From: Burkholderiales bacterium
GTDB lineage: Bacteria; Pseudomonadota; Gammaproteobacteria; Burkholderiales; Casimicrobiaceae
NCBI GenBank assembly: GCA_905339295.1
Contig: CAJPFI010000006.1
Coordinates: 62,001-126,000 of the forward strand
DNA length: 64,000 bases
Reading direction: 5' to 3'
Shown: one piece after another, positions 18,466 through 25,902 of the stretch
Layout of the letters: every line of letters begins with the position of its first letter
How positions within the stretch are numbered: position 1 is the stretch's first letter
Notes under the pieces: generated by a model
What the model saw: only the letters and a program-made list of their open reading frames with translations
What the model was told of the DNA's origin: nothing
Database searches by the model: none
Translations under genes and position numbers: made by a program

Positions 18466-18569
18466 TGGGCGTCCGGCATACGCCGGGCCCTCGGACAGGA
18501 CGCCATGCAGGTCCGGCATCGGCCGGATGGTCTTGCGCATCAGCGCGACCGACAACGATCGAGGATTCC

Positions 18570-18950
18570 GTCGGGCTGAAGCCCGACCCACGGCCACATG
18601 AGCGACGGTCCGGGCCATCGAGGATTCGGTCGGGCTGAAGCCCGACCCACGGCAGCATGAGCGACGGTCCGGGCCATCGAGGATTCGGTCGGGCTGAATC
18701 CCGACCCACGGCAGCATGAGCGACCCACATGAGCGACGGTCCGGGCCATCGGGGATTTTGTCGGGCTGAAGCCCGACCCACGGCCCCATGAGCGACGGTC
18801 CGGGCCATCGGGGATTTTGTCGGGCTGAAGCCGGACCCACGGCAGCATGAGCGACCCACATGAGCGACGGTCCGAGCCATCGAGGATCCCGTCGGGCTGA
18901 AGCGCGACCCACGGCACCGCGAGCGTTCGTGGGTCCGGCTTCAGCCGGAC
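18570..18950. repeat. Tandem REP-like palindrome array, seven copies
   Basis: Six direct copies of the palindrome GTCGGGCTGAAGCCCGAC (with variants) begin at 18570, 18629, 18688, 18760, 18819 and 18891. A seventh, inverted copy is at 18933-18950. Spacing is 59, 59, 72, 59 and 72 bases; the 72-base units contain an extra 13-base duplication (CATGAGCGACCCA). The intervening DNA is also repeated (CCACGGC..CATGAGCGACGG). The array fills the gap between the YnjB- and YnjC-like genes and runs into the start region of the permease gene. Confidence 0.9.
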
Positions 18951-21595: not shown

Positions 21596-22024
21596 ATGAC
21601 ATTCAGCCGCCTCTCTCTGCGCCGCCTGGCCGCCTGCATGCTGGCATCGTGGGTCCTGGCGCTGGGCGCGAGCGTTGCGCACGCGTGCGGCCTGTCGGCG
21701 CACGTCGCCGTGGCGGGGCATGGCGATGTCGTCACGCCGACGGCTGCGAGTGTGGTCCCCATGCCGCTCGCCGTGCACGGACACGAACAGCCGCGCAATG
21801 CCGCCGAAGCGCTTTGCCTCAAGTTCTGTGCGGAGGAGAAGGCGTCTGCCCCGAGCCTCGCCATTCCTTCCGTACCTGCCGCCCCGGCGCTGATCAACAG
21901 CCTGCCGCCGTCCGTGCTGCATGACGCGGTGCCGCTGCAGACCAGGCGGCTGGCGTGGCGGCTCGAGCAGGGGCGACGCCCCACGCGCTCGACGTTGATC
22001 GACCTGCAGCGCCTCATCCTATAG
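21596..22024 (+). CDS. Small exported Cys/His protein, CopL-like
   Basis: A 142-residue protein with a signal peptide (RLSLRRLAACMLASWVLALGASVAHA, cleavage about residue 27). The mature part has CGLSAHV, several His residues (AVHGHEQ) and a CLKFC motif, which together could bind metal. Proteins of this general shape, such as CopL, lie ahead of copper-resistance genes. The ATG at 21596 is used; an in-frame TTG at 21581 would add five residues. It is the first gene after the FNR-like box and is followed by the Met-rich protein. Confidence 0.55.
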   Translation: MTFSRLSLRRLAACMLASWVLALGASVAHACGLSAHVAVAGHGDVVTPTAASVVPMPLAVHGHEQPRNAAEALCLKFCAEEKASAPSLAIPSVPAAPALINSLPPSVLHDAVPLQTRRLAWRLEQGRRPTRSTLIDLQRLIL

Positions 22025-22238: not shown

Positions 22239-22730
22239 ATGAATTCGATTCGAAGCCTCACCCTCGTGGCCGTCGCGCTGTCGGCATTTGCCGCCGGCGC
22301 ACAGACCCCGGCCGCCGCGCCCCCCGATCACGACGTGCACCATCCGGCCGGTACGGCGATTGCGCCGCCTGCCGACCCTGCCTCGCGTTCGGCGATGATG
22401 GACGAGCACATGCAGGCCATGCAGGCCATGCACGCGAAGATGAATGCCGCGACCACGCCCGCGCAGCGCCAGGCGCTGATGGCCGAGCACATGGCGCTGA
22501 TGCAGCAGGGCATGGCGCTGATGGGCGGCATGGGGCCGGGCGCCATGGGCGCGGGCATGGGCAGGGGCGGCATGCAGCGAGGGGCCGGGATGGGTGCCAT
22601 GCCCGGTGGCCCGGCGATGCCTGCCGACATGGCCGAGCGCCATAAGTGGATGGAAAAGCGCATGGACATGATGCAGTCGATGATGCAGATGATGATGGAC
22701 CGCATGGCTGCGCCCGCGGCCAGGCCCTGA
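22239..22730 (+). CDS. Methionine/histidine-rich periplasmic protein, probable copper binder
   Basis: A 163-residue exported protein with a signal peptide ending near AAGAQ (about residue 21). The mature chain is dense in Met and His: HDVHH near the N terminus, HMQAMQAMHAKM, a long MGGMGPGAMGAGMG stretch, and MDMMQSMMQMMMDRM near the end. Such Met-rich segments bind Cu(I) in known copper-handling proteins. No catalytic motif is present. It is placed 39 bases before the CuA subunit gene and may help load that site or buffer copper. Confidence 0.65.
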   Translation: MNSIRSLTLVAVALSAFAAGAQTPAAAPPDHDVHHPAGTAIAPPADPASRSAMMDEHMQAMQAMHAKMNAATTPAQRQALMAEHMALMQQGMALMGGMGPGAMGAGMGRGGMQRGAGMGAMPGGPAMPADMAERHKWMEKRMDMMQSMMQMMMDRMAAPAARP

Positions 22731-22768: not shown

Positions 22769-23521
22769 ATGCCTTCGGATGAACCGATCAGGACACATTT
22801 CACGACCCGACGCGCCTTCGTCGCGGCTGCGGGCTTCGGCGGCCTCAGCCTGTATGGGCTGTGGGCGGGGTACGGCGCGGCACCGGGGCCGCTGGCGCTG
22901 CTCGGCCTGGAGGGCGACCACGCCGGGGCCGTGACGCCCGACCATGCCGGTGACCACGGCGGCGGTCACGCCGCGGTGAATACCGGCACCGCGGACGCGG
23001 GCGGTGCGGGTGCTGCGGGGGGTGCTCATGGCGGCCATGGTGCGGCCGGAGGCGGCCCGGACCCCGAGGCCTTCCGGCGCATGACCGACGCCTTCATCGA
23101 GCGCTATCGCCTTGGCGACGGCACCGTGCATCCGCGACGGCTGCCTGCTCCCGCGCTGCCCGGCCAGGATCCCCATGCCGGCCACGCTGCACACGCCGCC
23201 GCCGGCGACGGCATGGCGATGGCGGCGCCGATGGCGGACGGACCGATCGAGGTACCGATGGTGGCCGGTCGCTGGTACTACCTGCCGGCGGCGCTGCGCC
23301 TGGATGCCGGCGAGGCCTACCGCTTTCGCATGCTGGCGGTGGACACGTCGCACGGCGCGTCGATCCAGTTCGGCCGCGGCGGGCGCATGGCGCGCCTGCA
23401 CCCCGGCCGCGAAGCGCAGCTCGAGCTGAGCTTCCCCCAACCCGGACGCTACTTCATGTACTGCACGGTCTATTGCGGCGCCGCGCATGACCTGATGCAG
23501 GCGAGGATCGAGGTGGTCTGA
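22769..23521 (+). CDS. CuA-domain cytochrome oxidase subunit II-like protein with Tat-type signal
   Basis: A 250-residue protein. TTRRAFVAAAGFGGLSLYG (residues 12-30) looks like a twin-arginine signal or anchor. A His/Gly/Ala-rich stretch follows (about residues 45-95, including HAGDHGGGHAA), then a cupredoxin domain. The CuA ligands appear complete: H195 and the set C232, C236, H240 and M243 in YCTVYCGAAHDLM. It should accept electrons from a cytochrome c or copper protein in the periplasm. The stop is followed two bases later by the subunit I gene. The His-rich insert is unusual for subunit II and may hold extra metal. Confidence 0.8.
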   Translation: MPSDEPIRTHFTTRRAFVAAAGFGGLSLYGLWAGYGAAPGPLALLGLEGDHAGAVTPDHAGDHGGGHAAVNTGTADAGGAGAAGGAHGGHGAAGGGPDPEAFRRMTDAFIERYRLGDGTVHPRRLPAPALPGQDPHAGHAAHAAAGDGMAMAAPMADGPIEVPMVAGRWYYLPAALRLDAGEAYRFRMLAVDTSHGASIQFGRGGRMARLHPGREAQLELSFPQPGRYFMYCTVYCGAAHDLMQARIEVV

Positions 23522-23523
23522 TC

Positions 23524-25176
23524 ATGGCCGACCTCTCCATGGAACGCATGGCCGCGCTGCCGGCGGCCGACCGCAGGCTTCTCAAGGGCATGGCGGCGGC
23601 CGCGCTGCTGGCCTTGGCGTTGGGCATTGTCGGCGGTGCACTCACCGCCGCGGCGCGCGCGGGCTTCATCGACATCGTGCCGGCCACGGGCTACCGCTAC
23701 CTGACCGTGCACGGCGTGAGCATCTTCTTCTACTGGCTGTTCATCGCGCAGGCGGCGCTGCTGCTGGGGTTCGCCTCCACCGAGAACGACCGGGGCCTGG
23801 TCTGGCGCCGGCTGGCCTGGGCTGGCTTCCTGCCGATGCTCGCCGGCTTCGGATTCAGCGTGGCGGGATCGCACATGGGGGCGCCGCTGCTCTACAACGG
23901 CGCTCCCGAGCTGGCCATCGACGACCCCAGCGGGCTGCTGGTGTTCAACCTGGGCTATGTCCTGCTCGGGCTCGGGCTGCTGGTGCTGCCGGTCTCGGCC
24001 ATCGTGACGCTGCTGACACCGCGCTGGCAGCGACGGCAGCGAACGCTCAGCGCGGTCGGCTTTGCCTTGTTCGTCTGGGCAGGCTTCCTGATGGTGACCG
24101 GCTTCGCCGCGCTCTACACCTTCGTGCCCGGATTGGTCTGGGCGCTCGGCGTCGGCGCCTTTCCGGCCGACCACGGCACGCGCTGGCACATCGTGTTCCA
24201 CAACATGCACTACCTGCCGCTGATGGCCACGGTGATCCTCTGGTACGTGCTCGTGCGCGCGCTCACCGGCGTCAAGTCGGTGTTCGGCGATCGCTTCTCC
24301 AAGATCGTGTTCTCGATGTACCTGGTGTTCGTGCCGCCGACATCGCTGTACCACATGTTCCTCGAGCCGACCCTGCCGGGGCCGGTGCGCGTGGCGGGTT
24401 CGCTGCTCTCGTTGTTCGTCAGCGTGCCCACGCTCACCGCCTTCCTGATCATCGTCGCCTCGCTCGAGGTGCACGCGCGCACGCAGGGCGGGCGCGGCCT
24501 GTTCGGCTGGCTGCGCCTGCTGCCCTGGCGCCATCCGGCGATGGCGTCGATCGGCGTGGCGGTGCTCAGCATGGCGCTGGGCATCACCTTCTCCTTCGTG
24601 CTGATTCAGGGCGACCTGGCGCCGTTGCTGTCGGACACCTTCTTCGTGCCGGGCTACTTCCATTTCTTCACCGTCGGCACCGTCAGCCTGACCCTGCTTG
24701 CCGCGCTCGCCGTGGTGCTGCCCGCGATCGGCGGGCGCGCGCCGTGGCGGCCGCGACTGCTGCGCTGGATGCCGTGGCTGGCGTTCGCCGGCTTGCTGGT
24801 ATTCGGCGCGGCGGGCATCGCCGCCGGCTACCTGGGCGTGCCGCGGCGTGTGATCGACGTCACCTACCAGGGCCAGGCGCCAGCCGCGTGGCAGGCGTTG
24901 ATGGCCGTGATGGGTGTCGGCGGGACGGTCATGGCGCTGGCCCTGGCGACCTTTGCAGCCGGGGTGGCGGCTTCGCTGTGGCCGCGGCGCGAGCCGGCGG
25001 CGTTTGGCGGCCCGACCGTTGACTGGGGCGGCCTCGTCGTGCGACCCGGCGCCAGCGCCTGGGTCGGCCCGGTCTCGGTGCTGCTGATCGTGGCGGCGAT
25101 GTACTTGTTCAGCGCGCTCGGCTTCGAGCTGATGCAGTCCCTGCCCGTCAGCGCAAGCGGCGGCGGCGGCCATTGA
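23524..25176 (+). CDS. Haem-copper oxidase subunit I homologue, ba3-like, with an altered active site
   Basis: A 550-residue membrane protein with at least twelve helices, resembling type B (ba3) oxidase subunit I along most of its length. Examples are VPRRVID near residue 442 and a segment around residues 270-317 that matches the ba3 region GFHHQFADP through ASLE. H63 (low-spin haem) is present, as is H226 with Y230 (H-x3-Y, the CuB His and cross-linked Tyr positions). However, the usual HH pair is Y276-H277, and the usual H-x-H haem pair is Y378-F-H380. So one CuB ligand and the high-spin haem ligand are replaced by Tyr. Normal O2 reduction is doubtful; the family name alone would mislead. 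Confidence 0.75.
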   Translation: MADLSMERMAALPAADRRLLKGMAAAALLALALGIVGGALTAAARAGFIDIVPATGYRYLTVHGVSIFFYWLFIAQAALLLGFASTENDRGLVWRRLAWAGFLPMLAGFGFSVAGSHMGAPLLYNGAPELAIDDPSGLLVFNLGYVLLGLGLLVLPVSAIVTLLTPRWQRRQRTLSAVGFALFVWAGFLMVTGFAALYTFVPGLVWALGVGAFPADHGTRWHIVFHNMHYLPLMATVILWYVLVRALTGVKSVFGDRFSKIVFSMYLVFVPPTSLYHMFLEPTLPGPVRVAGSLLSLFVSVPTLTAFLIIVASLEVHARTQGGRGLFGWLRLLPWRHPAMASIGVAVLSMALGITFSFVLIQGDLAPLLSDTFFVPGYFHFFTVGTVSLTLLAALAVVLPAIGGRAPWRPRLLRWMPWLAFAGLLVFGAAGIAAGYLGVPRRVIDVTYQGQAPAAWQALMAVMGVGGTVMALALATFAAGVAASLWPRREPAAFGGPTVDWGGLVVRPGASAWVGPVSVLLIVAAMYLFSALGFELMQSLPVSASGGGGH

Positions 25177-25196: not shown

Positions 25197-25400
25197 ATGA
25201 ACGAGGACTTCGTGCTGGTCCTGCCGGTTGCGCTGGTGTGGGCCGTGCTGGCTGTGGTGTATGCCATGGCGCCCTGGGGCGACATGATCGGCTACGCCTG
25301 GGTGTGGGGCTTCGGCTCCGTGTTGTTCGTCGGCTTGTCCGGGTTGCTGCTGCGCCGCGGCAGCCCGGGCGGCGAGGTCGGTCCCGACACGCGGCAGTGA
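25197..25400 (+). CDS. Small membrane protein of the oxidase-like cassette
   Basis: A 67-residue protein with two hydrophobic helices (about residues 6-26 and 33-52) and a polar Gly/Arg-rich tail. The ATG at 25197 follows a strong GGAAGGAG ribosome site; the frame is open from 25173 but only via a TTG. It lies between subunit I and the cytochrome c gene and is probably a small accessory subunit. Family not recognised. Confidence 0.6.
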   Translation: MNEDFVLVLPVALVWAVLAVVYAMAPWGDMIGYAWVWGFGSVLFVGLSGLLLRRGSPGGEVGPDTRQ

Positions 25401-25416: not shown

Positions 25417-25902
25417 ATGACGCTGCGGCCGCTTCCCGTCGTCGTCGGCCTGGCGCTGGCGGCGGGCGTGGCCTTCCTGGTGCTCGGCGACCCGTTTGCC
25501 GGCGCCGGCCGCGACACAACGCTACGGCCCGACGATGCGCGCGTGCTCGCCAGGGGCCGGCAGGTCTACGAGACGCAGTGCGCCACGTGCCACGGGGCGC
25601 GGCTCGAAGGCCAGCCGAACTGGCGCGAGCGCGGGCCCGATGGCCGCCTGCCCGCGCCGCCCCACGATGCCAGCGGCCACACCTGGCACCACCCGGACGA
25701 GATTCTGTTCCGTATCACCAAGCTTGGCGTGGCCAAGGTAGCGAATCTGACGGACTACGCCACGGCGATGCCGGTATACGACGGCGTGCTCGGCGACGAG
25801 GACATCGTCGCCGTGCTGTCGTGGATCAAGTCGCAGTGGCCCGCCGGCATCCGTGCCAGGCACGACCAGGTCAACCGGCAGGCGCGCTCGCGTACGCCTT
25901 GA
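25417..25902 (+). CDS. Membrane-anchored monohaem cytochrome c
   Basis: A 161-residue class I cytochrome c. An N-terminal hydrophobic helix (residues 8-24) serves as anchor or signal. The haem motif is C55-A-T-C58-H59 and a likely axial Met lies in TAMPVYDG. It is the probable electron donor to the CuA subunit encoded upstream. It starts 16 bases after the small membrane protein, in the same operon. Confidence 0.85.
   Translation: MTLRPLPVVVGLALAAGVAFLVLGDPFAGAGRDTTLRPDDARVLARGRQVYETQCATCHGARLEGQPNWRERGPDGRLPAPPHDASGHTWHHPDEILFRITKLGVAKVANLTDYATAMPVYDGVLGDEDIVAVLSWIKSQWPAGIRARHDQVNRQARSRTP

Follow-up and report, generated by a model that had tools for sequence, protein, structure and literature searches.

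The haem-copper superfamily is defined by the ligands of its binuclear centre. The closest described system to the locus presented here is the ba3 (B-family) oxidase of Thermus thermophilus, with which it shares the fold (structural Z ~31), a CuA-bearing subunit II, the low-spin haem ligands, one CuB His, the His/Tyr pair and the VPRR loop. The proteins are 24% identical and differ by the substitutions H282Y, H384Y, H376S, G232F, V236H and W229H (ba3 numbering), and the family described here also has an extended, usually His-rich, Tat-like subunit II and, in most relatives, a copper-resistance operon around it. A haem-copper subunit I together with a cupredoxin subunit II is also found in the NO reductases sNOR, eNOR, gNOR and CuANOR. 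These replace the active-site Tyr by N, Q, D and N, respectively (PMC8756737 Table A4), whereas in our family this Tyr is kept and the haem and copper ligands are changed instead. Membership in a known NOR family (cNOR, qNOR, sNOR, eNOR, gNOR or CuANOR) was rejected on account of the Tyr at the diagnostic E/N/Q/D position (PMC8756737). The multicopper Cu(I) oxidases CueO and PcoA (CopA) share with the family its operons and the task proposed for it below, periplasmic Cu(I) oxidation, but they are soluble, lack haem and have an unrelated fold; some of the family clusters carry both. Searches of the open literature gave no description of the family.

The locus lies in a window of 64,000 nt (the whole stretch of DNA analysed), corresponding to positions 62,001-126,000 of the forward strand of contig CAJPFI010000006.1, from a Burkholderiales bacterium of the Casimicrobiaceae. 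The features involved are the following (fractions refer to the family sequences or loci introduced below).

21596..22024, + strand: small secreted-looking protein with His and Cys, upstream (from sequence only)
22239..22730, + strand: small Met/His-rich protein of 163 aa, probably periplasmic; no other ORF of the 64 kb window is Met-rich
22769..23521, + strand: subunit II, 250 aa, with a Tat-like TRRxF signal/anchor, a His-rich linker and a CuA cupredoxin domain (profile match)
23524..25176, + strand: subunit I homologue of 550 aa that has the B-type haem-copper oxidase fold and a remodelled binuclear centre (Pfam COX1)
24199..24213, + strand: H226-N-M-H229-Y230 of subunit I; positions of the CuB His and Tyr retained, ba3 V236 replaced by H229 (census, panel alignment)
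24349..24354, + strand: Y276-H277 of subunit I, replacing the HH pair (alignments; 66/66)
24631..24663, + strand: S370-D-T...Y378-F-H380 of subunit I; HNT changed to SDT and H-x-H to Y-F-H (S370, Y378 and H380 in 66/66)
25197..25400, + strand: small membrane subunit, 67 aa, with two hydrophobic segments (same family beside subunit I at 56/66 loci)
25417..25902, + strand: monohaem cytochrome c (Pfam Cytochrom_C, 8.9e-11)

The ORF of subunit I starts with the ATG at 23524 and its stop codon ends at 25176; the ORF, the coordinates and every residue number given in a preliminary description of this DNA were correct. Its match to Pfam COX1 was at 5.9e-36 (124.7 bits for a cut-off of 34.8), and the nearest solved structure by sequence was the T. 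thermophilus ba3 oxidase (1ehk, phmmer E 2.7e-22). A profile built from 62 family sequences aligned with ba3 (E 2e-32) in the same register across residues 18-498, and this register appeared again in a 47-sequence MAFFT panel that included ba3, b(o/a)3, A-type and cbb3 oxidases. The type B (ba3) kinship that had been proposed by eye is thus confirmed by three independent alignments, and their agreement rules out an alignment slip, as had also been claimed. The AF2 model of subunit I (pLDDT 85, pTM 0.88) matched ba3 and aa3 with structural Z of 31-32. By its 12-helix COX1 fold and its homology, subunit I is a member of the haem-copper oxidase superfamily by descent, within the B branch. The confidence of this apo-chain model drops (pLDDT ~53-72) exactly at residues 271-300 and 351-380, that is, at the remodelled centre, which might reflect ligands absent from the model or a shallow alignment.

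In this register the low-spin haem ligands H72 and H386 of ba3 correspond to H63 and H380, both invariant, and the CuB His H233, the Tyr Y237 and the His H283 correspond to H226, Y230 and H277. Two ligands are lost, the CuB His H282 being Y276 and the proximal His of the high-spin haem, H384, being Y378. The preliminary description had read H63, H380, H226 and Y230 as kept and both Y276-H277 and Y378-F-H380 as true replacements of ligands by Tyr, and all of this stood in the alignments and in 66/66 sequences. A simple move to other His ligands was also considered and rejected: although H222 is invariant and H229 nearly so, they sit at ba3 W229 and V236, not at H282 or H384. Additional substitutions around the centre, absent from the preliminary description, were H376 to S370, G232 to F225, V236 to H229 and W229 to H222 (panel alignment). 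In ba3, H376 lies near the propionate of the high-spin haem, and G232 and V236 presumably line the ligand path. The latter two are the sites of ba3 mutants named in PDB titles. Tyr 244 of ba3, which belongs to the K-type proton path, is V237 by alignment offset, and this Val is invariant in the family. Among the standard features of O2 reductases, the two low-spin haem His and the Tyr at i+4 of the CuB His are kept in 66/66 sequences; those that fail are the proximal His of the high-spin haem (Y378, 66/66) and the three standard CuB His, the third of which is Y276. H229 is placed beside CuB, and a three-His copper site (H226/H229/H277) may have been rebuilt without H282.

Relatives first came to light in two further Burkholderiales genomes (56-57% identity) and on Azospirillum plasmids (60%). 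A scan of one genome per species, with which some overlap of these first relatives is likely, then gave 65 loci, making 66 sequences with the window copy. They span Alpha-, Beta- and Gammaproteobacteria, with genera that include Azospirillum, Rhodoferax, Hydrogenophaga, Azoarcus, Thioalkalivibrio, Nitrincola, Paracoccus and Tabrizicola. Two search patterns were used in the scan, one of which contained H222, H226 and N227, while Y230, Y276 and Y378 were outside both. Residues Y230, Y276, H277, M278, S370, D371, Y378 and H380 were invariant (66/66), as were H222, H226 and N227, whose invariance is partly built in by the search pattern, and H229 was found in 65/66. Both Tyr to which the preliminary description had drawn attention, Y276 and Y378, were therefore present in every homologue counted with neither of them in the patterns. 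Within segments 221-237, 266-282 and 370-380, 33/45 positions were invariant (73%), versus 60/505 elsewhere (12%, p ~1e-18). No other part of subunit I is as conserved as these three segments round the would-be active site, indicating that something is bound or done there; mere decay of the centre would leave a different pattern.

The family was monophyletic (100/100) with a long stem, and no intermediate with just one of the two Tyr substitutions was seen. The sequences closest to the family in the tree have the full set of standard haem and copper ligands, bar OWN_C39b, a very divergent row of unsure register. Family members score above 600 bits with P0001 and the next matches reach at most ~160 bits with the family profile; those matches below the family that were examined keep HH and H-x-H. 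The sister of the family (97/90 and 100/95 forks) is a NOR-like B-family group with a GHSSQQ motif, which keeps HH and H-x-H and has Gln where the family has Tyr230. The occurrence of the family in three proteobacterial classes and the mixture of Alpha-, Beta- and Gammaproteobacteria in the part of the tree that contains the window copy suggest horizontal transfer. Five other COX1-family genes were found in the same genome, including an A-type and a cbb3 gene whose ligands are standard. A paralogue with GHSSQQ (L029, G000:C39, 13529-15253, strand -) groups with similar proteins of other genomes. On the same contig (L029, G000:C39, 5661-7145, strand -) there is a very divergent haem-copper oxidase homologue of 494 aa with an IPAHYH motif, adjoining cytochrome b6-like and ferredoxin-reductase-like genes.

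Subunit II was found directly upstream of subunit I at 63 loci. Its profile matched ba3 subunit II in the PDB at 5.5e-16 (best chain 1.4e-16) and N2O reductase at 3e-5, and the model comprised a helix (13-34), a disordered linker and a cupredoxin domain (160-249). The linker is longer than in ordinary subunits II and usually His-rich (median 9% His), with a widely varying content that gives totals of 4-26 His per subunit II protein. The CuA ligands H195, C232, C236, H240 and M243 were invariant in 63/63 subunits II, so that the neighbouring CuA subunit is complete, as it had appeared earlier, though the CuA motif CTVYC has Val instead of the usual Glu of CxExC. The Tat-like TRRxF start is conserved across the family. 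With this Glu missing and this start conserved, the assembly of CuA (22769-23521) may differ from that of ordinary oxidases. Directly downstream of subunit I, the small membrane protein was present at 56/66 loci and had no match in Pfam or NCBIfam. The monohaem cytochrome c is a possible redox partner in this genome only; CXXCH ORFs occur near just a few other loci, and a cytochrome c partner as a family-wide trait was dropped because it is not conserved among them. Met-rich ORFs were found within 5 kb of 26/66 family loci. The small His/Cys protein had no family match in Pfam or NCBIfam, and no multicopper oxidase domain was found with these databases in any of the six proteins scanned.

The copper-resistance setting, of which the preliminary description had no sign, is the strongest clue to function. 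Neighbouring ORFs were clustered over all loci and then named with NCBIfam and Pfam. The recurrent ones were a CusA/CzcA RND pump, CusB, a TolC-like channel, a copper P-type ATPase, CusRS, CueR, a PcoA-like multicopper oxidase, CusF, LTXXQ, DUF305, DUF302, DUF2933 and Met-rich proteins. At least one strict copper marker was present at 44/65 relatives, many contigs being short. The copper P-type ATPase was near 22-23 of the 65, whereas its genome-wide frequency, taken from ten of these genomes, predicts ~1.3; the P of ~5e-23 for this linkage comes from a random-placement model that ignores kinship and should be read as indicative. CusB and CusA were found at 18 loci each, CusR at 14, CueR at 8, CusF at 6, the PcoA-like oxidase at 5-7, and cluster C14, labelled DUF411 from sequence without a profile match, at 10. 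In several genomes the three genes for subunit II, subunit I and the small subunit occupy a central position within a co-directional copper operon that faces CusRS. At L043, for example, a single strand carries TolC-CusB-CusA-...-DUF411-SUII-SUI-small-MetRich-DUF2933-methyltransferase-ATPase (SU, subunit), with CusRS opposite. An isoprenylcysteine-methyltransferase-like membrane protein accompanies the copper ATPase and DUF2933 in 24-25 loci (L040, L043, L046 and others). Around the window copy itself there is no Cus/Cop gene within the 64 kb, the Met/His-rich protein being the only candidate, and the CusA of the genome is elsewhere on the same contig. Some other members also have no copper genes nearby, though many such contigs are short. 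For the window copy we therefore infer the copper role from its relatives, while for the family a role in copper resistance is very probable. A gene neighbourhood gives the pathway and not the reaction; the link to copper is strong, and the chemistry is what we infer.

Having lost catalytic ligands, subunit I could be taken for a decayed pseudo-oxidase or a sequencing error. Identical substitutions in 66 genomes, the conservation of the three-gene unit and a dN/dS of ~0.2-0.3 against five relatives (NG86), which indicates purifying selection on the gene, refute this and leave it a negligible probability. That we are not dealing with a standard O2 or NO reductase is, on the other hand, highly likely, and the earlier view of a protein that is no ordinary oxidase and has kept its CuA and low-spin haem sites is supported by the conserved ligands of both and the absence of the standard centre. 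An unusual terminal reductase could still be at work, with a catalase-like Tyr378 on the high-spin haem and copper on H226/H229/H277, reducing O2, peroxide or NO and serving when copper poisons ordinary oxidases. Such an enzyme would agree with the intact CuA and low-spin haem sites, with the strong conservation of the remodelled centre, with the retention of Y230 and with H229 as a substitute for the lost CuB ligand. We nevertheless consider it unlikely, given that H376S, G232F and V236H all fall round the high-spin haem or its ligand path and that Y244 of the K-type proton path has become V237; no terminal oxidase or NOR family is known to have a proximal Tyr. Table A4 of PMC8756737 also gives E, N, Q or D for the NOR families at a position that is Tyr here.

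The loss of the proximal His, the bulky Phe at ba3 G232 and the invariant low-spin ligands would all be expected of a pure electron-transfer cytochrome, in which CuA and one low-spin haem b pass electrons to quinone or another partner and the old centre is a filled scaffold. This was one of the options in the preliminary description and it fits poorly with a remodelled centre that is the most conserved region (33/45 vs 60/505); a scaffold leaves the 33 invariant positions, including H222, H226, H277 and both Tyr, unexplained, and we regard it as improbable. The other option given there, an unusual Tyr-ligated centre, may hold. A copper carrier, buffer or sensor, with redox activity secondary, has also to be considered, in which copper would be bound by the His cluster of helices VI/VII and by subunit II through its His-rich arm, and passed to CusCBA or to the sensor CusS. 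The operons with CusCBA, CusF and CusRS, the His-rich linker and the additional H222 (invariant) and H229 (65/66) point that way, but the invariance of the CuA site and of the haem ligands speaks for electron transfer, and the His content of the linker is highly variable, making this role quite unlikely. The reading that we favour, and consider reasonably probable, is that a conserved, horizontally spread complex of subunit I, CuA subunit II and the small subunit derives from B-type (ba3/NOR-like) oxidases and was recruited to copper detoxification. That it works specifically as a Cu(I) oxidase is a tentative proposal. Periplasmic Cu(I), or else a reduced partner, would supply electrons to subunit II through its His-rich arm and CuA. 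From CuA they would move via haem b into the remodelled centre, which might consist of copper on H226/H229/H277 together with Y230 and Y276, and might also include a haem ligated by Tyr378. Candidate final acceptors are quinone, peroxide and slow O2, and the net effect would be the oxidation of toxic Cu(I) to Cu(II). Within this proposal, a new binuclear site with copper on H226/H229/H277 beside a tyrosinate-ligated (catalase-like) haem, or beside the adjacent Tyr pair, receiving Cu(I) electrons via CuA, is a doubtful detail.

The invariant Tyr in place of two His and the usual copper-resistance setting suggest that an oxygen-reducing enzyme fold was rebuilt to handle toxic copper rather than to breathe oxygen. 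If so, a widespread and strictly conserved branch with Tyr in place of a haem and a copper ligand, found in copper-resistance operons, would represent a new function for this fold, one that ties electron transfer of the respiratory type to metal detoxification. Its members may carry a cytochrome c oxidase annotation, and genome counts of oxygen respiration would then be misleading. Azospirillum brasilense and Hydrogenophaga pseudoflava, both culturable, are among the species in which the family occurs. Elsewhere in the window (18535-18925) there are six copies of an interspersed palindromic element, GTCGGGCTGAAGCCCGACCCACG, with a spacing of 59 or 72 nt. This element is REP-like, with ~357 copies in the genome (up to two mismatches) versus 0 in a reversed control.
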